This document shows, one piece after another, positions 16,063 through 63,621 of a stretch of DNA of 64,000 nucleotides. Position 1 is the first letter of the stretch, and the number at the start of each line of letters is the position of its first letter. Source of the DNA: Candidatus Scalindua sp. SCAELEC01 (GTDB lineage Bacteria > Planctomycetota > Brocadiia > Brocadiales > Scalinduaceae); assembly GCA_004282745.1 (NCBI GenBank), contig SHMT01000011.1, forward strand, positions 62,001-126,000, read 5' to 3'. The translations under genes were made by a program, and so were the position numbers. The notes below the pieces were generated by a model. The model ran no database searches, was not told where the DNA came from, and was given only the letters and a program-made list of their open reading frames with translations.

Positions 16063-16092
16063 TCTAGCCTATCGAAAAGTGTTAGATGGAGT

Positions 16093-16274
16093 TATACCCA
16101 TCACAAATTGGATTTCGGTTTTCAGAACCCGATTTCACATGAAATTTAGACTTTTCTCAATCACAAAATCCTCGACTTAGCATCACTAAGCCTCTGGTTT
16201 TGTTCAATCAAAAAATCAAAATTTCAAGCAAACTCCTGCCCAGAAATTCCGAAAACCATTTTGCAATGAATATA
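16093..16274. repeat. Family B inverted-repeat element (182 bp)
   Basis: Bounded by TATACCCATCACAAATTGG and, on the other strand, TATATTCATTGCAAAATGG; the ends are imperfect inverted repeats. Near-full copies at 46807, 51247 and 52295 share the internal motif CTCGACTTAG..CTAAGCC. The termini are TA on both sides. Confidence 0.85.
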
Positions 16275-17164: not shown

Positions 17165-17214
17165 GCTTAATTTTGTCTCGGATTTTATCAGAAAACCATT
17201 ATGAGATGAGTATA
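17165..17214. repeat. Family C element fragment
   Basis: Matches the last 50 bases of the family C copy at 63803-63934 almost exactly, ending ATTATGAGATGAGTATA. The other end is missing, so it is a truncated copy. Confidence 0.7.
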
Positions 17215-23770: not shown

Positions 23771-25168
23771 ATGACGAACTTAGTGAATAGCTGGGTTGGT
23801 TATTTATCACTGCTTTTGTTTTTTATTGGCTACGTCCTCATTATATTTGAGGAGAAACTACACCTTAAGAAATCAAAACCAATTGTTTTGGTCAGCTGTC
23901 TGATGTGGTTGTGCATTGGTGTTTATGAGGCGATGCATGGAGTCGGACTTGCGGCAACCACTACCTATTCATTACGAGAGGATAGCACCATTTTCTATGA
24001 AGTAAGGCATGGGGGTGGGACTCATGAATTCATCGAACACCTTATTGCAGAGATCGGAGGTCTTTTTTTCTTTCTCCTGGTGGCCATGACTTACATTAAC
24101 ACCCTCACTTCTCTTAATGTATTTCAGGCCATACGTGCAAAGCTGTTATCCAGGGGGATGGGTTTTAAGTCCCTATTCTGGGTCACCGGAGGCCTGACTT
24201 TTATCATCTCTCCTTTTGCAGATAATTTGACCAGCGCCATGCTCATGTCCACTGTCGCATTGGCAGTAAGTGGCGGAAATAAAAAATTCATCGTACCAGC
24301 CTTTGTCAATATTGTCGTAGCTGCTAATGCCGGTGGCGCCTGGAGCCCTTTTGGGGATATTACGACATTAATGGTTTGGATGGAGGGAAAAGTTGAGACC
24401 CTCAAGTTTCTCTATCTGGTACTCCCATCCCTTGTCAACTGGCTTATCCCGGCCTTTGTCATGAGTTTATGGATACCCAAGGGAAAACCGGAATGTGATA
24501 AAGAAACGGTTGCCCTTAAGCCGGGTGCCAAGAGGACCATATTTTTTGGAGTTCTCACTATTCTGTTAGGTGTCTCTTTTCATCAATTCCTCCATCTGCC
24601 TCCTTTTATGGGCATGATGCTGGGTATGGGATTTCTCATGTTCGTATCCTATTACATGCGACAGTGGGGGGAAGAAAAGTTTTTAAAGAAGAACCTGGGC
24701 TCTGAAAAAGAGAGACGGGATCTATCCAGTTACGATTTTTTTAAAAAAGTGGAACAGGTGGAGTTTGATACCCTGCTCTTCTTTTTTGGAGTCTTGACGG
24801 CCGTAGGGGCGTTACAGTACATGGGACACCTTGCCCTAATCGGAAATGCCTTTTACGGTATCCTTGGACATACGTATGCCAACGTGGCGATTGGCCTTGT
24901 CTCTGCCGTTGGAGACAATATACCCCTCATGTATGCGGTACTTAAGATGGACATGGAGATGGGACTCGACCAGTGGTTGCTCATCACCTTGACAACCGGA
25001 GTGGGGGGGAGTTTGCTTTCGATAGGGTCGGCTGCGGGTGTCGCCGTTATGGGCGTAAATAGAGAGCACTATACATTTATGTCTCATATAAAATGGGCCC
25101 CAATTATTGCGCTGGGTTATGCCGGAAGTATTGTCACCTGGTGGTTGGTTACTAAGTTCCTGATGTAA
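23771..25168 (+). CDS. nhaD: Na+/H+ antiporter, NhaD type
   Basis: Integral membrane transporter, 465 residues and about 12 hydrophobic segments, of the ion-transporter superfamily. It exchanges cytoplasmic Na+ for H+ and is common in marine or haloalkaline bacteria. Recognisable motifs are HLIAEIGGLFFFLLVAMTYI, SPFADNLTSAMLMSTVALA, NAGGAWSPFGDITTLM and a late AVGDNIPLMYAVLKMDM segment, which carry the polar residues expected for the transport path. A strong ribosome site (GGGAGG) precedes the ATG. Transcription probably ends near the hairpin at 25564. A short family A element begins just after the stop. The symbol rests on family resemblance. Confidence 0.88.
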   Translation: MTNLVNSWVGYLSLLLFFIGYVLIIFEEKLHLKKSKPIVLVSCLMWLCIGVYEAMHGVGLAATTTYSLREDSTIFYEVRHGGGTHEFIEHLIAEIGGLFFFLLVAMTYINTLTSLNVFQAIRAKLLSRGMGFKSLFWVTGGLTFIISPFADNLTSAMLMSTVALAVSGGNKKFIVPAFVNIVVAANAGGAWSPFGDITTLMVWMEGKVETLKFLYLVLPSLVNWLIPAFVMSLWIPKGKPECDKETVALKPGAKRTIFFGVLTILLGVSFHQFLHLPPFMGMMLGMGFLMFVSYYMRQWGEEKFLKKNLGSEKERRDLSSYDFFKKVEQVEFDTLLFFFGVLTAVGALQYMGHLALIGNAFYGILGHTYANVAIGLVSAVGDNIPLMYAVLKMDMEMGLDQWLLITLTTGVGGSLLSIGSAAGVAVMGVNREHYTFMSHIKWAPIIALGYAGSIVTWWLVTKFLM

Positions 25169-25170
25169 AT

Positions 25171-25242
25171 AGTGTTTGAACGAAAACTACCCATCTACTG
25201 CAATGTTTGCCCGTTGCAAATTCGTTGGGTATAGAAAACACT
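25171..25242. repeat. Family A element, short degenerate copy (72 bp)
   Basis: Begins AGTGTTTGAACGAAAAC, then the reversed inner motif TACCCATCTACTGC, and ends AAAACACT. It is flanked by AAAT on the left and AATT on the right, a near-match target duplication. Half the length of intact copies. Confidence 0.65.
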
Positions 25243-25269: not shown

Positions 25270-25407
25270 ATGAATAACAGTATGAATAAGAAATCCGGAC
25301 GCAGAAAAAACTTCAGACTTGAAGGTTTTGAATACAAAGGAAGTACTTATGTTTATTTCATAACTATTTGCACTCATAACAAACAGCATTATTTTAGCGG
25401 GCTTTAA
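25270..25407 (+). pseudogene. REP-associated tyrosine transposase (RAYT) N-terminal remnant
   Basis: An ATG-initiated frame of 45 codons ends at TAA 25405-25407. It contains RRKNFRLEGFEYKG followed by YVYFITICTHNKQHYF, the highly recognisable N-terminus of the Y1 (REP-associated tyrosine) transposase family. Intact members are about 150-300 residues with an HUH motif and a catalytic tyrosine further on. None of that follows here, so the gene is a truncated relic. A second in-frame ATG at 25282 is an equally good start. It lies 27 bp after the short family A copy. Confidence 0.75.
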
Positions 25408-28632: not shown

Positions 28633-28795
28633 AGTACTTGAACGAAAACCCTGTGGTTGAACGAAAACGGCACAGAGACAAGGCGTGTAATAATATCGTG
28701 ACCGGAACGTACGAGGACTCAAGTAACGTAAGTATTACAGCGAAGGATCTTCGAACCCTTTAGCCGTAGATGGGTAGTTTTCGTTCAACTACGCT
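28633..28795. repeat. Family A element, diverged copy (163 bp)
   Basis: Begins AGTACTTGAACGAAAAC and ends TTTTCGTTCAACTACGCT; internal motifs CAAGGCGTG and GTAGATGGGTAG match intact copies. The flanks no longer match, so this is an older insertion. It lies 40 bp upstream of argG, where it could affect the promoter. Confidence 0.75.
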
Positions 28796-36899: not shown

Positions 36900-37908
36900 A
36901 TGTGTTACAAATCTCTTATAAAGATATTTTTTGTAAGTCTTTGCCTTGTAGTTCTTTCGAAAAGCTCGCCTTCCGATATCTGCGCTGAAACCCTTTTTGA
37001 TAATGAATACCGTATCGGTACTGATGATATCCTTGATGTACAGGTTTGGGACAATGACGATTTGAATCGTGTTGTTGAAGTGTCAAAGGAGGGGGCATTT
37101 ACCTTTCCCCTCATTGGCAAGGTCCATACTGCTGGGCTCACCGTCTTTGATCTGGAGAATGAGATAAAAAAAAGATTGGCAGATGGTTATTTGGTAAACC
37201 CAGAAGTGTCGGTGTGTATCCAAAAATACATGAATCAAAAAGTTTTTCTTCTTGGTGAAATAAAAACACCGGGAAGTTATCTTTTAAAAAGGAAAACCCA
37301 CATTTTAGAATTGATTTCAATGGCCGGTGGTTTTGCAGACTCGGCAGGAAGAATAGTTAGTGTCTGAACGAAAACCCTGTGTTTGAATGAAAAGTGCCCA
37401 GGTACAAGGCGCGTAACAATTTCGTAACCGGAACGTACAATTGTACTTGAGGATTTCTAAATTGTTGCAGCAACGTAGTAGATGGGTAGTTTTCGTTCAA
37501 ACACTAGTTAAGATAGTTAGACCAACACAACAGCTTAATTATCATAAAGGGACTGTAGCGCCCGATAATCTTGCAGGCAACAATGTGATAACATTAGATT
37601 TATCTAAATACAGTGACGACATTGCTTATGATGTATTTTATGTTACGAGCGGTGACACTATTTATGTTAACACAATTCCAAGGATATTTGTTAACGGAGA
37701 GATAAGACGGCCAGGTGAATTCAAATGGGAGACAAGTCTGACTGTTCGTCAAGCAGTTTCCCGTGCAGGAGGGTATATCGAAAATGCCGCCTTGAAACGA
37801 ACCAAGATCATTCGCCTAATAGATGGCCGAGAAAAAGAAATTGAAACTCGTATGGAAGATATTGTGATGCCTGATGACATTATTAAGGTTCCAGGACGAT
37901 ATTTTTAA
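36900..37908 (+). pseudogene. Polysaccharide export protein (Wza-like), split by family A insertion
   Basis: An outer-membrane/periplasmic polysaccharide export protein broken by a 147-bp element. The 5' part (36900-37358) has a signal peptide (KIFFVSLCLVVLSKSS) and the export domain YRIGTDDILDVQVWDNDDL, then an SLBB-type domain to SAGRIV. The element at 37359-37505 adds SV and a TGA stop. The 3' part (from 37506) carries a second SLBB domain (RIFVNGEIRRPGEFKW, VSRAGGY) and ends KVPGRYF. Taking out the element and one AGTT copy joins AGRIV to KIVRPTQQ in frame. The remaining protein would be about 286 residues, normal for the family. The 5' fragment could still be exported but lacks the second SLBB domain. 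A tyrosine kinase gene follows 24 bp later. Confidence 0.9.
37359..37505 (+). repeat. Family A element, intact (147 bp), AGTT target duplication
   Basis: Starts AGTGTCTGAACGAAAAC and ends GTTTTCGTTCAAACACT; ends are inverted repeats with one mismatch in 17. It is flanked by AGTT at 37355-37358 and 37506-37509. Internal arms GCCCAGGTAC..CGCG and GTAGATGGGTAG also pair loosely, so the whole unit can fold as one long hairpin. Confidence 0.93.
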
Positions 37909-37932: not shown

Positions 37933-40572
37933 ATGAGAAATGAAACGGATCGTGACTTTACACCACCGAGAACAACATTTGAACATGAAGTGCATCTTGC
38001 AGACTATCTTTCCATCATTTGGAAGCGCAAATGGGTTGCCATCACCTTCTTCCTCGTAGTGGTGGCGGTGGTTTTAGTCAAAACGTATTATACAAAACCT
38101 GTCTATAAAGCTACGGCTCAGGTGATTATCGAAGGATTCTCTTCGCCTGTTACCGGTATGGCCCAAGTTTCTGACATGGATAGCAAGAGCTCATATTATT
38201 TTGCAACGCAGTGTGAATTACTCGAAAGCAGGAACCTTGCCAGAAAGATTGTGGAAGATTTGCAATTGGAAGAATATTATGAGGCTACTAAGGAAAAACC
38301 CAACTTTGTGGCTTCAATTATTGGTAATTTTCAAAAATTTGTCAGAAAATCTTTATCACCGAAGAGTTTAAATGTTCCGGAAGCTCCCAAGAGGAAAAAT
38401 AGGGGAAGCCGTGCCAAAGGTGAAGAGGTTCTCTTAGAACGGAAACCGATAGTTGGTTGGTATCTTTCAGGGCTTGAGGTTGTCCCTACAGCAAAGACCA
38501 ATTTAGTGAGTATCAGCTTTTTAGATCGTTCTCCGGAAATGGCTGCACGAATTGCAAATTCACATGTAAAAGCATTTGTTGAAAAAAATAAACAGTTAAA
38601 AAGTTTGGCTTCACAAAACACCTTTGACTGGCTCAAAAAAGAGCTAAGAGATCAGAAAATTAAGCTAGCAAAGTCGTCCCTTGAAATTGAAGAGTTTAAA
38701 TTTAAAGAGCTTGATTTTCATCCAGTTGATAGCGATAGCTTTTTTGCCTTGCCTGAAGTGAAAGACCATTATGTTCTTCAGGATCTACGTAGGCAGTTAG
38801 CACAGCTAAAAACCAATAAAATGGAGCTTAACACGAAGTATGGTCCTAAGCATCCAAAAATAATAGAAATTGATTCGAGTATCAGCCAATTGGAAAAGAG
38901 TATTGTCGATGAAGCGGAACAGTTGAAAGAGTCGAAGCGAATAGAATTAAACCGTACCGTTGTTGAGGTTGGCACTGAAACACAGAATCAGACGGAGATA
39001 AATTCTCAGGCTGAATTTTCCGATAGCAAGTTTACAAACTATGGGATGTTAGAATTGGAAGCAGAAAGTGATAGGGCAATTTATGATATCTTGCTAAAAC
39101 AAGCGAAAGAGATCAATCTTACCGGTAATATGGAGAGCAATAATATTAGCATTGTCGATGCGGCAGTTATTCCTCGCTTCCCGATTAAGCCGAATGTGAT
39201 CTTTAATATTCTACTAGCAATTATTATGGGGTCGACTCTGGGAGTGGGACTTACTCTGTTCATAGAGTATATGGATAAAACGGTAAGGACTCCTGAAGAT
39301 ATTATGCGACATCTTGAACTGCCAGTTTTAGGTATGTTACCGTATAATAAGTATTTAAAGAGGACAGAGTCGCTTGTGTTACCAGCGAACAATGGGAGGA
39401 CCCAATTTAAACTGAACGAACCGAAGAAAGACAGTGGGAGGAATGGGAGGTATTATAATGTATCAAGTAATCTCATTTGTGGCTTACCGCTATTACAATC
39501 GGGGATTTCTGGGCAAGTACTCTTGATTGAAAGCGCAACTGTTGGTGAGGGAAAGACAACGGTACTTGCAAATTCGGCTATCAATTTAGCAAAAGGTGGT
39601 CTTCGTGTAGCAATGGTTGATGCAGACCTGCAGCGGCCATCTTTGCATAACAAGTTTGGCATAGATGGCAGTAGTACAAAAGGATTACTCAATATAATGA
39701 CCAAGATTCTTTCAAAAAACCTCGATCACGGTACTTTAGATAATTGTAGTATCGATGATCTGTTCTTTCTTATTTCTTTGAAAAAGCAGAGTGGAAAGCT
39801 TGTCGTGAAAGATGATTCCCAAACAATGACCGTAGTTTTTGAAAATGGTCGATTGATCCATCTCCACAGTAACGAAGTTCCCTTTGCCAATCGATTGGGA
39901 ACAATGCTCCTTCGTGGTGGATTTATTGACGAGAATCAACTAAAAGATGCCCTGGATCGAAACAAACGCACGGGGCTACCTATGGGCTATATCCTCATTA
40001 ACTCTGGATATGTTAATCAGAGTCAATTACAAGGCCCAGTAAAGCTTCAAATGGAAGAGCATCTTCAGAAATTGTTTAGCTGGAAACAGGGTAACTATGT
40101 TTTTGAACCAGGACATGTAGAAAACTATGAGGACAGAAGGATTCAATTTAAAGAGGATTACTCACTGATTATCAAACGTTTGGGACGTATGGTTGGAAGT
40201 AGATTAGTCGAGAACGAAGTGCTCTCATGCCTTGAATCTATAGAGGGCTTGAGCCTCTCTTTATTAACTTCAGGTCGTGATGACATGAGGAATGAAGGTC
40301 CACAGTATTTTAAGTTCTTTACAAAGGTACTGGATATCCTAAAACAACGCTTTGATATCGTACTTATTGATGCACCTCCGTTATTAGAAGCATTAGGTAG
40401 TGTGAGACCATTGTTGCCTTTAGTTGATGGCGTAATCTTTGTTGTCAAGTCTGGACAAGCTTCTGCCAAAATGGTTAATCAAGCAGCAAGTTACTTGAAA
40501 GAGTCTGATACTCGTATCGTTGGTACTATATTAAATCAAGCGAAAAAAGATTCTACCTACTATGGATATTAA
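37933..40572 (+). CDS. Wzc-like tyrosine autokinase with PATAN/DUF4388-like insert
   Basis: Inner-membrane polysaccharide co-polymerase and BY-type tyrosine kinase, 879 residues. The Wzz domain has membrane helices near 30-55 and 420-445 (VIFNILLAIIMGSTLGVGLTLF) around a coiled periplasmic part with GPKHPKI. The kinase domain has Walker A VGEGKTT (537-543), Walker A' AMVDADLQRPS and Walker B FDIVLIDAPP (807-816). Between A' and B lie about 200 extra residues (590-790) with GKLVVKDDSQTMTVVFENGRLIH, then LGTMLLRGGFIDENQL and FSWKQGNYVFEPG, which resemble a PATAN/DUF4388 domain plus its helical partner. The C-terminal tyrosine cluster is only TYYGY. It follows the broken export gene by 24 bp and presumably shares its promoter. 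Confidence 0.9.
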   Translation: MRNETDRDFTPPRTTFEHEVHLADYLSIIWKRKWVAITFFLVVVAVVLVKTYYTKPVYKATAQVIIEGFSSPVTGMAQVSDMDSKSSYYFATQCELLESRNLARKIVEDLQLEEYYEATKEKPNFVASIIGNFQKFVRKSLSPKSLNVPEAPKRKNRGSRAKGEEVLLERKPIVGWYLSGLEVVPTAKTNLVSISFLDRSPEMAARIANSHVKAFVEKNKQLKSLASQNTFDWLKKELRDQKIKLAKSSLEIEEFKFKELDFHPVDSDSFFALPEVKDHYVLQDLRRQLAQLKTNKMELNTKYGPKHPKIIEIDSSISQLEKSIVDEAEQLKESKRIELNRTVVEVGTETQNQTEINSQAEFSDSKFTNYGMLELEAESDRAIYDILLKQAKEINLTGNMESNNISIVDAAVIPRFPIKPNVIFNILLAIIMGSTLGVGLTLFIEYMDKTVRTPEDIMRHLELPVLGMLPYNKYLKRTESLVLPANNGRTQFKLNEPKKDSGRNGRYYNVSSNLICGLPLLQSGISGQVLLIESATVGEGKTTVLANSAINLAKGGLRVAMVDADLQRPSLHNKFGIDGSSTKGLLNIMTKILSKNLDHGTLDNCSIDDLFFLISLKKQSGKLVVKDDSQTMTVVFENGRLIHLHSNEVPFANRLGTMLLRGGFIDENQLKDALDRNKRTGLPMGYILINSGYVNQSQLQGPVKLQMEEHLQKLFSWKQGNYVFEPGHVENYEDRRIQFKEDYSLIIKRLGRMVGSRLVENEVLSCLESIEGLSLSLLTSGRDDMRNEGPQYFKFFTKVLDILKQRFDIVLIDAPPLLEALGSVRPLLPLVDGVIFVVKSGQASAKMVNQAASYLKESDTRIVGTILNQAKKDSTYYGY

Positions 40573-46741: not shown

Positions 46742-46806
46742 CGGGCTCCCCTGCCCGGCAAGACGGTCGGACGGGGGGCTCTTCTGCGTTAAGGTAAATT
46801 TTGGTA

Positions 46807-47030
46807 TATATCCATCACGAATTGATTTTCGGTTTTCAGAACCAGATTTCACCAGAACTTTAGATCTTTCTCAATCACAAAATACTCGACTTAGGGCCCA
46901 GGATAAAACAACAGGCTATTTTTTCCTGCACCCTTAGCATTACTAAGCCTCCGGTTTTTGTTCAATCTAAAAATCAAAATTTCAGACAAACGCTTGCCCT
47001 GAAATTCCTAAAACCACTCCGTAATGGGTA
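46807..47030. repeat. Family B element (about 224 bp) carrying a nested family D element
   Basis: Matches the 182-bp family B copies end to end (TATATCCATCACGAATTG at the left, CACTCCGTAATGGGTA at the right). It is interrupted at the internal CTCGACTTAG motif by the family D unit at 46891-46937, which explains the extra length. Confidence 0.85.
46891..46937. repeat. Family D element nested in family B
   Basis: TTAG, then GGCCCAGGATAAAACAAC and ending TTTTTTCCTGCACCC, then TTAG. Uninterrupted family B copies have one TTAG at this place, so insertion duplicated TTAG (or TTA). Confidence 0.85.
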
Positions 47031-47425
47031 TTTTCGTGTTTGTGACACTTTTGATCCCTGTCTGAAAGGGTGGTCAGGTGGGTGCTGCATGCGAGTGAAG
47101 GATTCTGATCTGGATACGAGACGTCAGCCCGGCTTATCAGTCAATCGGAGGGACAAAAAGCCATGTTGTTTCTTTAATCAATTGATCCTTTTGGTTGCAG
47201 GCTACTTAAAGCCCATACAGTGGTTGGCGCTCGATGGTGTCTAACTAAGGGTCCTGGACCCTAAGGGTAATTCAACGTGACCTCAAATAAAAGCAGGTAG
47301 ATTTTGATGGGAATGATCTAAAAAACAGCCGTTCAGCTATCACGCATACCTCAGGTTACCAGCAACAGAAAAGTAGTCCCGCTTGAAAAGAAGAGATCAT
47401 ACAATAAATACACACAGGTGATAAA
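47031..47425. other. Intergenic, nothing recognised
   Basis: About 395 bp with no gene. A near-palindrome, TAAGGGTCCTGGACCCTA, occurs near 47250. The minus-strand rpsI stop lies at the right end, so this region should hold its terminator. Confidence 0.4.
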
Positions 47426-51020: not shown

Positions 51021-51450
51021 GGGAATTAGTGATAGCGATCAGGCCATCTTTGTCCGATCTACAATTACCAAATAATCACAACGCAGCTAAGGCTGCGTTC
51101 CGGTTCAACTCAATCAGATCGACTAAATCGGACCTAAACTGGAGCATTATAAATTGTAAAGTTAACTTTTCGAACCCTTACTACAATAATTCCGTAATAC
51201 TCACGTGCTTGAGTACGCTCCGGTTGCGGAATTTTTACGCGCCTTTTATACCCATCGCAAATTGATTTTTGGTTTTCAGATCCCGATTTCACATGAAATT
51301 TACATTTTCCTCAATCACAAAATCCTCGATTTAGTATTACTAAGCCTCTGGTTTTGTTCAATCGAAAAATAAAATTTCACGCAAACTCCTGACCTGAAAT
51401 TCCAAAAAGCATTCTGCAATGAGTATATCTGGGAAGTTGGTTCAACCACT
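51021..51450 (-). repeat. Second family A copy, split by a family B element
   Basis: A family A right part is visible from about 51180 (ATTCCGTAATACTCACGTGC, GGAATTTTTACGCGCC) and resumes after 51428 as TCTGGGAAGTTGGTTCAACCACT. The family B unit at 51247-51427 lies inside it. The left end of this copy cannot be traced before about 51170. Confidence 0.7.
51247..51427. repeat. Family B element nested in family A
   Basis: TATACCCATCGCAAATTG to CTGCAATGAGTATA, 181 bp. The uninterrupted family A text here reads CGCCTTGTACCTGGG; with the element it is CGCCTTTTA then TATCTGGG, consistent with insertion at TA with TA duplication. Confidence 0.85.
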
Positions 51451-55644: not shown

Positions 55645-55791
55645 AGTGTCTGAACAAAAACCCTGTGTTTGAATGAAAAGTGCCCAGGTACAAGGCGCGT
55701 AACAATATCGTAACCGGAACGTACAATTGTACTTGAAGATTTCGAAATTGTTGCAGCAACGTAGTAGATGGGTAGTTTTCGTTCAAACACT
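55645..55791 (+). repeat. Family A element, intact (147 bp), ATCT target duplication
   Basis: AGTGTCTGAACAAAAACCC to TTTTCGTTCAAACACT, flanked by ATCT at 55641-55644 and 55792-55795. It is nearly identical to the copies at 37359 and 63413, which points to recent movement. Confidence 0.93.
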
Positions 55792-60195: not shown

Positions 60196-60487
60196 CGGAG
60201 CTGTACCTGGAGAGCAGGGTTAATGACTACAGTCTTAAAGATCAAATAGGGAGAACCGCGGTTCAACAATGGACAATATTGCAGAGGGATTTGATAACGG
60301 CTCTTCGAGAGAATTTATACGGTTGTTTGTCTATCCTCAAAGATCATGTGGAGAAGTCTCATCTCAATTATGTCGTGCGTGAGATAGTGATTGTGTTAGT
60401 AAATCAGAATTTGAAACAGTTTATGTTATTGCAGAGAATGTAGGAAACAGATTAAGGGGTTTAGAAAGTACCTTCGAAATTATATAG
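60196..60487 (+). pseudogene. Four-helix-bundle protein (23S rRNA-IVP family), broken
   Basis: The decayed gene has DYSLKDQIGRTAV in one frame, then MDNIAEGFDNGSSREFIRL in another after a single-base loss near 60265, then a TGA after LCRA, then CVSKSEFETVYVIAENVGN and so on in the same frame. These are the landmark motifs of the IVP-like four-helix-bundle family. The frame ends where a family A element begins, and the TAG at 60485-60487 is formed partly by the element. Confidence 0.8.
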
Positions 60488-60632
60488 TGCGTGAACGAAA
60501 ACCCAGTATTTGAAACAAAACTGCCCAGGTACAAGGCGCGAAATAATTACGTAACCGGAGCGTACTCAAGTACGTGAGGATTACGTCATTGTTGCAGCAA
60601 CGCCGTAGATGGGTAGTTTTCGTTCAAACACT
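60486..60632 (+). repeat. Family A element, intact (147 bp), ATAT target duplication
   Basis: AGTGCGTGAACGAAAACCC to TTTTCGTTCAAACACT, flanked by ATAT at 60482-60485 and 60633-60636. It sits at the stop codon of the broken four-helix-bundle gene. Confidence 0.93.
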
Positions 60633-62467: not shown

Positions 62468-63064
62468 ATGTCGATAAGAATACTCTGTAGCGCTGCAATA
62501 CTTTCACTATGCCTTACCATCCTGTCTCAATCAGATCACTGTGAAGCCAGGGATATAGCCCCTGATGATGTCTTGGACATTACCGTTTATGGACATGATG
62601 ATCTGACCATTTCCACCCGTGTCTCTGCAGAGGGTGAAATATCCTACCCTCTGCTGGGAACCCTCATTGTGACGGATAAGACGGTGCGTGAACTGGAAAA
62701 AGAGATTCAGGAACTCCTCAATAGGGACTACATCGTTGATCCCCATGTGGTTGTCCTTACAAAAGAGTCTCACTCACACATGGTCTATGTTATGGGACAA
62801 GTGGAACACCCTCAAGCTATCGATCTGACCAAAAATAAGGTGACGACCCTTCTGGAGGCGATATCTATGGCGGGGGGATTTACGGACCTTGCCAATAAAA
62901 ACAAGATACAGATTGTGCGAAAATCCGAAGATGGTACGAAGCAAAATATCACCATAAAACTCGCCAGTATTATCAAAAAACGGAAAAAAGGGGAACAAGT
63001 CGGCGAAGATGAGACTGCTATTAAAGCCGGAGATGTCATCATGGTCACGGAACGGAACTTTTAA
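62468..63064 (+). CDS. Polysaccharide export protein (Wza-like)
   Basis: An exported protein of 198 residues. A signal peptide (AAILSLCLTILSQS) precedes the export domain, with IAPDDVLDITVYGHDDL near residue 30 and GEISYPLLGTLIV, followed by an SLBB-type repeat (HMVYVMGQVEHPQAID and LLEAISMAGGFTD). It is shorter than the family norm (about 250-350) and has one SLBB region, so it may lack the outer-membrane part. An AAGGAA site precedes the ATG. It shares clear sequence with the broken export gene at 36900 (AISMAGGFTDLA against ISMAGGFADSA), and could replace it in function. Confidence 0.88.
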   Translation: MSIRILCSAAILSLCLTILSQSDHCEARDIAPDDVLDITVYGHDDLTISTRVSAEGEISYPLLGTLIVTDKTVRELEKEIQELLNRDYIVDPHVVVLTKESHSHMVYVMGQVEHPQAIDLTKNKVTTLLEAISMAGGFTDLANKNKIQIVRKSEDGTKQNITIKLASIIKKRKKGEQVGEDETAIKAGDVIMVTERNF

Positions 63065-63109: not shown

Positions 63110-63621
63110 GTGACTAAAGTTGTGGAGAATAAGGGATTTGCTAAGGGGCTGGAATTGAAAACACGACAATTTGCAGTAAGAATAATTACATTGTCCACAA
63201 AGTTACCGAATACTCCAGAGGGTCGAGTTATAAGAAATCAGATTACAAAATCAGCAACATCCATTGGTGCTAACTACAGGGAAGCCAATCGCGCTAGAAG
63301 TAAGGCAGATTTCAAGAACAAGATTAAAATCTGTGAAAGTGAATCAAGTGAAACACAATATTGGATAGAAGTAATTCTTGATACAAAATGGTTGTCTAGA
63401 GAAGAAGTAAATAGTGTCTGAACGAACCCTGTGTTTGAATGAAAAGTGCCCAGGTACAAGGCGCGTAACAATATCGTAACCGGAACGTACAGTTGTACTT
63501 GAGGATTTAGAAATTGTTGTAGTAACGTAGTAGATGGGTTGTTTTCGTTCAAACACTAAATATAGATTATCAAGAATGCAGCGAATTACTTGCTCTTTTC
63601 ACAACAATTGGAACAAAGTAG
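63110..63621 (+). pseudogene. Four-helix-bundle protein (IVP family), split by family A insertion
   Basis: The frame starts at a GTG and has KTRQFAVRIITLSTKLPN, NQITKSATSIGANYREANR and KICESESSETQYWIEV, hallmarks of the IVP-like four-helix-bundle family. After REEVN the element at 63413-63557 adds SV and TGA. Beyond it the text resumes as DYQECSELLALFTTIGTK and TAG at 63619-63621. Removing the element and one AAAT copy gives EEVN-IDYQEC in frame, a normal family length of about 120 residues. Confidence 0.85.
63413..63557 (+). repeat. Family A element, intact (145 bp), AAAT target duplication
   Basis: AGTGTCTGAACGAACCC to TTTTCGTTCAAACACT, flanked by AAAT at 63409-63412 and 63558-63561. It is 2 bp shorter than other intact copies because of a small loss in the left end. 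Confidence 0.93.

Follow-up and report, generated by a model that had tools for sequence, protein, structure and literature searches.

A MITE with ISNCY-type ends interrupts a predicted Wza-type polysaccharide export gene in Candidatus Scalindua

Introduction

The breaking of genes by MITEs is already known, and a single insertion of this kind is ordinary: an operon for phosphate uptake is interrupted by the Chunjie-1 MITE (review, PMC10969869), and the hupL MITE of Ca. Thiomargarita nelsonii interrupts a gene as well (PMC4853749). The element analyzed here, from the ammonium-oxidising (anammox) bacterium Candidatus Scalindua sp. SCAELEC01, resembles both in being short and non-coding, in having inverted ends and a target duplication, and in occurring in many, mostly intergenic copies with an occasional gene break. 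The gene that it interrupts has the Poly_export and SLBB domains of Wza/OPX proteins (PDB 2j58 and 9n9a) and, like the genes for these proteins, is adjoined by a Wzz/BY-kinase-type gene; unlike them, the copy studied here is broken at SLBB 1. The locus lies in a stretch of DNA of 64 kb with a G+C content of 39.7%, which is referred to below as the window and which its relatives assign to the Brocadiales.

Results

Insertion site and reconstructed frame

Direct reading of the sequence delimited an insert of 147 bp at 37359-37505 that starts with AGTGTCTGAACG and ends with CGTTCAAACACT. It is bordered by two direct repeats, identified by sequence reading and family comparison, namely,

37355..37358, + strand: left target-site duplication AGTT
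37506..37509, + strand: right target-site duplication AGTT

Once 37359-37505 and one AGTT are removed, the flanks form one uninterrupted frame (285 aa) that reads AGRIV-KIVRPTQQ across the joint, and the coordinates and frame rebuilding put forward in a sequence-only reading of this DNA were thus right to the base. A TGA at 37365-37367, within the element, ends the frame of the first half of the gene, and the frame of the second half is open up to 37908. The empty site, reconstructed from the left and right AGTT copies, is TAGTTA and fits the TANNTA target of the repeat family described below. The genome is a draft of 104 contigs and the element a high-copy repeat, which would favor the wrong joining of a repeat into an intact gene by assembly. 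However, the flanks are in-register halves of one gene with a perfect AGTT duplication at the target of the family, which a wrong join would not yield, and the repeat measures merely 147 bp; we therefore regard an assembly error as highly improbable.

The interrupted gene and its relatives

The two halves of the gene and the gene that follows are

36900..37367, + strand: export gene 5' half (Pfam PF02563, 3.1e-22; PF10531, positions 1-37 of 55; matches Wza structures)
37507..37908, + strand: export gene 3' half (Pfam PF10531 and PF22461; 64% identity to genome G001)
37933..40572, + strand: Wzz/BY-kinase-type gene (Wzz, GNVR, P-loop, and DUF4388), frame intact (Pfam domains, gene order)

The 5' half comprises an N-terminal segment, in which a possible signal peptide was judged by eye, the Poly_export domain, and most of SLBB 1, whereas the 3' half, from which the original start codon is absent, comprises SLBB 2 and the linker preceding it. 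Across both halves, PF02563, PF10531, and PF22461 exceed their cut-offs. By its domain content, the interrupted gene is that of a Wza-type polysaccharide export protein, with a predicted role as an outer-membrane pore. In the protein encoded at 37933-40572, the DUF4388 domain sits within the P-loop kinase domain.

The sequence-only reading had held that the element entered a working export gene; it had proposed a comparison with close relatives and had named two separate genes with the same gap as the outcome that would speak against it. The claim is supported by this comparison. In the closest relative, G001, which belongs to the same genus, the gene is unbroken (open frame of 329 aa; 66% identity over 279 aa), and the region of the joint aligns without gaps (AGRIVKIVRP in the rebuilt frame and AGRIIKILRP in G001). 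Jettenia, Brocadia, Anammoxibacter, and other Brocadiales genomes likewise have unbroken export genes that adjoin the kinase gene, and the two-gene arrangement was absent from all relatives examined. Two further observations concern these relatives. (i) An export-gene paralogue in G001 (L061, about 1492-1501) is seemingly broken by a frameshift, and no MITE was seen there. (ii) In the Brocadia loci L032 and L041, the orthologue has about 45 additional in-frame residues a few residues past the place of the insertion.

Both halves remain open, and the element contains a TTG (37441) in the frame of the second half, so that translation from this codon could yield a second-half fragment lacking an export signal. 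These features would also suit a split export protein, encoded by two functional genes and working as two chains. Such a split, however, is seen in no examined relative; moreover, the break falls at SLBB 1, with the first-half PF10531 match ending at position 37, and the second chain would have no export signal. The chance that the halves form a working pair is accordingly very slight.

The repeat family

The insert has the following features:

37359..37505, + strand: 147-bp MITE, palindromic, non-coding (end motifs, copy search, folding, consensus)
37359..37375, + strand: left terminal inverted repeat AGTGTCTGAACGAAAAC (same sequence at either end of the full ISNCY elements of relatives)
37378..37394, + strand: inner, decayed second left end TGTGTTTGAATGAAAAG (3 mismatches)
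37489..37505, - strand: right terminal inverted repeat AGTGTTTGAACGAAAAC (end-motif comparison)

The inverted-repeat arms are 18 nt long and 94% complementary, and no transposase frame is present within the 147 bp. Matches to the end motif numbered 18 in the window, compared to 0.36 expected. Exact end patterns retrieved at least 170 copies from the 4.59-Mb genome, whereas a reversed control pattern retrieved 0; loose candidates amounted to 409, suggesting further copies. The 59 full-length copies include 56 identical pairs. Statistics on duplications and genic location cover 72 copies that were fetched with flanks from these at least 170. A perfect 4-bp duplication was observed in 54 of the 72, an underestimate because some copies, mainly those of 128 bp, were cut at the inner end by the search pattern. 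All 54 duplications read ANNT and are followed by A, and in 52 of them T precedes. Short, devoid of a transposase, with inverted ends, a target duplication, and many near-identical dispersed copies, the element is a MITE. We rejected a duplication of TA only, as in the IS630/Tc1 type, since the sequence then left behind, TAGTTAGTTAAG, has a stop in the frame of the gene and since the 54 perfect ANNT duplications contradict it.

G001 contains two copies of this MITE family; the 15 other family genomes that were searched contain none. The MITE had no match among plasmids, nor did its right end among viral contigs, and a text search of the literature with the end sequence returned unrelated papers only. 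Further full or nearly full copies in the window, all intergenic, are

28633-28793: MITE copy
55645-55791: MITE copy
60486-60632: MITE copy
63411-63557: MITE copy

A number of additional observations were made on the family and its surroundings. (i) The amplified 147-bp form carries an additional 19-bp left end outside the decayed inner end (37359-37394), and in G001 both copies are shorter and single-ended, a form that may be ancestral. (ii) A truncated MITE end at 25171-25210 directly follows the stop of the gene at 23771-25168, and the TAA of this stop is part of a TAAATA target. A short frame after this end (25270-25407) presumably resembles the start of a REP-associated transposase. (iii) Other dispersed repeats of the window (16092-16273, 46806-47031, and 51246-51426, and at 17165, 56311, and 63885) contain CCATTATGAGATGAGTATA-like stretches and, by eye, look unrelated to the MITE. 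(iv) Brocadiaceae loci L080-L083, L086, L087, L090, L091, and L093 carry MITEs with the same ends and another interior, GTCATTTCGA...GAGAAATCT; since these keep the ends and differ inside, one end type pairs with several unrelated cores.

Link to ISNCY elements

Paired 17-base ends about 1.9 kb apart were found in Brocadiales genomes. Genome G026 contains three copies of a full element of 1885 bp, inserted in TANNTA sites with the target-site duplications AAGT, ATTT, and AAGT. The full elements of G026 and G024 have AGTGTCTGAACGAAAAC at both ends, and their transposase (515 aa) scores 469.8 bits against NF033593, transpos_ISNCY_1 (cut-off, 325). G042 has two more copies, with diverged ends, which conform to ANNT/TANNTA as well. 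The left end of the MITE is identical to the end of the full elements, and its right end is 1 base off. The MITE thus has in common with ISNCY insertion sequences (NCBIfam NF033593) the terminal 17 bases, the ANNT duplication, and the TANNTA target, and by these it is probably ISNCY derived; it differs from them in that it has no transposase gene and in that the ends diverge past the first 17 bases.

The G026 transposase protein, used as the query, had no match in the genome assembly to which the window belongs. An ISNCY search of this assembly found no intact copy and only one distant fragment, which has a stop, lies at a contig end, and is without MITE-type ends. The search itself works, since it gave above-cut-off matches in ten relatives. 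In the same assembly, searches for DDE_Tnp_1 (PF01609) and DDE_5/IS701 (PF13546) returned nothing, and following up end motifs that lack the usual MITE interior uncovered no transposase. Drafts such as this one can lose multi-copy elements, so that the absence of the transposase from the genome is not proven. As the assembly holds no intact ISNCY copy, the mover was assigned from relatives: an ISNCY enzyme probably moved the element in trans and is now lost or unassembled here.

Age of the insertion and avoidance of genes

The sequence-only reading had called the insertion recent because both halves remain open. The age stands, mainly on other grounds: the copy in the export gene is 0 to 1 base from the consensus of the 59 full-length copies, the one differing base being common to a second copy. 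Open halves are weak evidence of age, since the probability that the rebuilt frame has no nonsense mutation is about 0.49 at 2% neutral change; taken alone, they would leave room for a few per cent of such change.

The youth of the copy, and the fact that the exact loss of the element and one AGTT restores the frame, would be consistent with a reversible switch, in which precise excision in some cells turns the export gene on again. If so, the population would vary its surface polysaccharide by means of a MITE for which the assembled genome has no transposase gene. An intact matching transposase was not found in the assembly, however, nor was an empty site seen in the assembled genome, and we consider a switch very unlikely.

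Rebuilt frames no shorter than 120 aa contain only 6 of the 72 copies, whereas they contain 49% of 360 TANNTA sites taken from the flanks of these copies (Fisher p, about 1e-11). This avoidance of genes is most simply explained by selection and makes the export-gene insertion a rare damaging hit, one of few survivors. By inspection, a clear mid-gene break was seen in 2 of the six genic copies, the one in the export gene and L027. In L027 (element at 1501-1647), the flanks rejoin as a lipoprotein-like frame of 204 aa that is broken mid-frame.

The duplication places identical GTT codons at both sides of the element, in the right frames, and the MITE folds strongly as RNA (z, -4.9), features that might allow translational bypassing or removal of the element from the RNA, with the full protein still being made. 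Nevertheless, any such duplication gives identical codons on both sides, a search for an Rfam family match to the element found none, and the strong avoidance of genes is unexpected for a phenotypically silent insert; there is next to no likelihood that the element is skipped.

Kinase gene and exopolysaccharide

The kinase gene lies downstream of the export gene, separated from it by 24 bp, an order that is kept in relatives; it is plausible, from this arrangement, that both genes are on one transcript. Neither the element nor its surroundings show a terminator-like site. Five of the six Poly_export genes of the genome are intact, the sixth being the broken one, and one of the five is in the window (62468-63064). 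The sequence-only reading had suggested that exopolysaccharide may be missing or altered. The five other intact export genes weaken this suggestion and give no reason to expect that all exopolysaccharide is lost, and the loss of a slime layer does not follow from the insertion.

Discussion

Very probably, an ISNCY-type MITE transposed into the TAGTTA of a working Wza-type gene, duplicated AGTT, and thereby created a recent loss-of-function allele. This reading builds on demonstrated boundaries and duplication, a repeat family with its target rule, intact orthologues, and ends common with ISNCY elements. The ends, target, and duplication would be explained by a transposase that acts in trans on the inverted 17-bp ends. 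The insert adds an in-frame TGA and a frame shift, so that the first half would give at most a truncated protein of 155 aa, from which SLBB 2 and the last part of SLBB 1 are missing, and the product of the second half would be without an export signal; we infer from these frames that the export protein is non-functional.

The insertion marks a gene that is kept by relatives and lost in this lineage. It is a clean, recent event in a burst that is specific to the lineage and involves a single MITE family, with at least 170 copies here versus 2 in G001. The family adheres strictly to its target rule and has its likely parent, an ISNCY-type element, in related anammox bacteria. The burst provides a natural example of how a non-autonomous element expands without a visible transposase. 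The literature searched, limited in range, describes no MITE tied to an ISNCY parent. Compared to the Chunjie-1 and hupL MITEs, the element has its own sequence, target (TANNTA), and parent, and its copy number exceeds that of most elements in the review PMC10969869 while remaining below that of ERIC in Photorhabdus (711).
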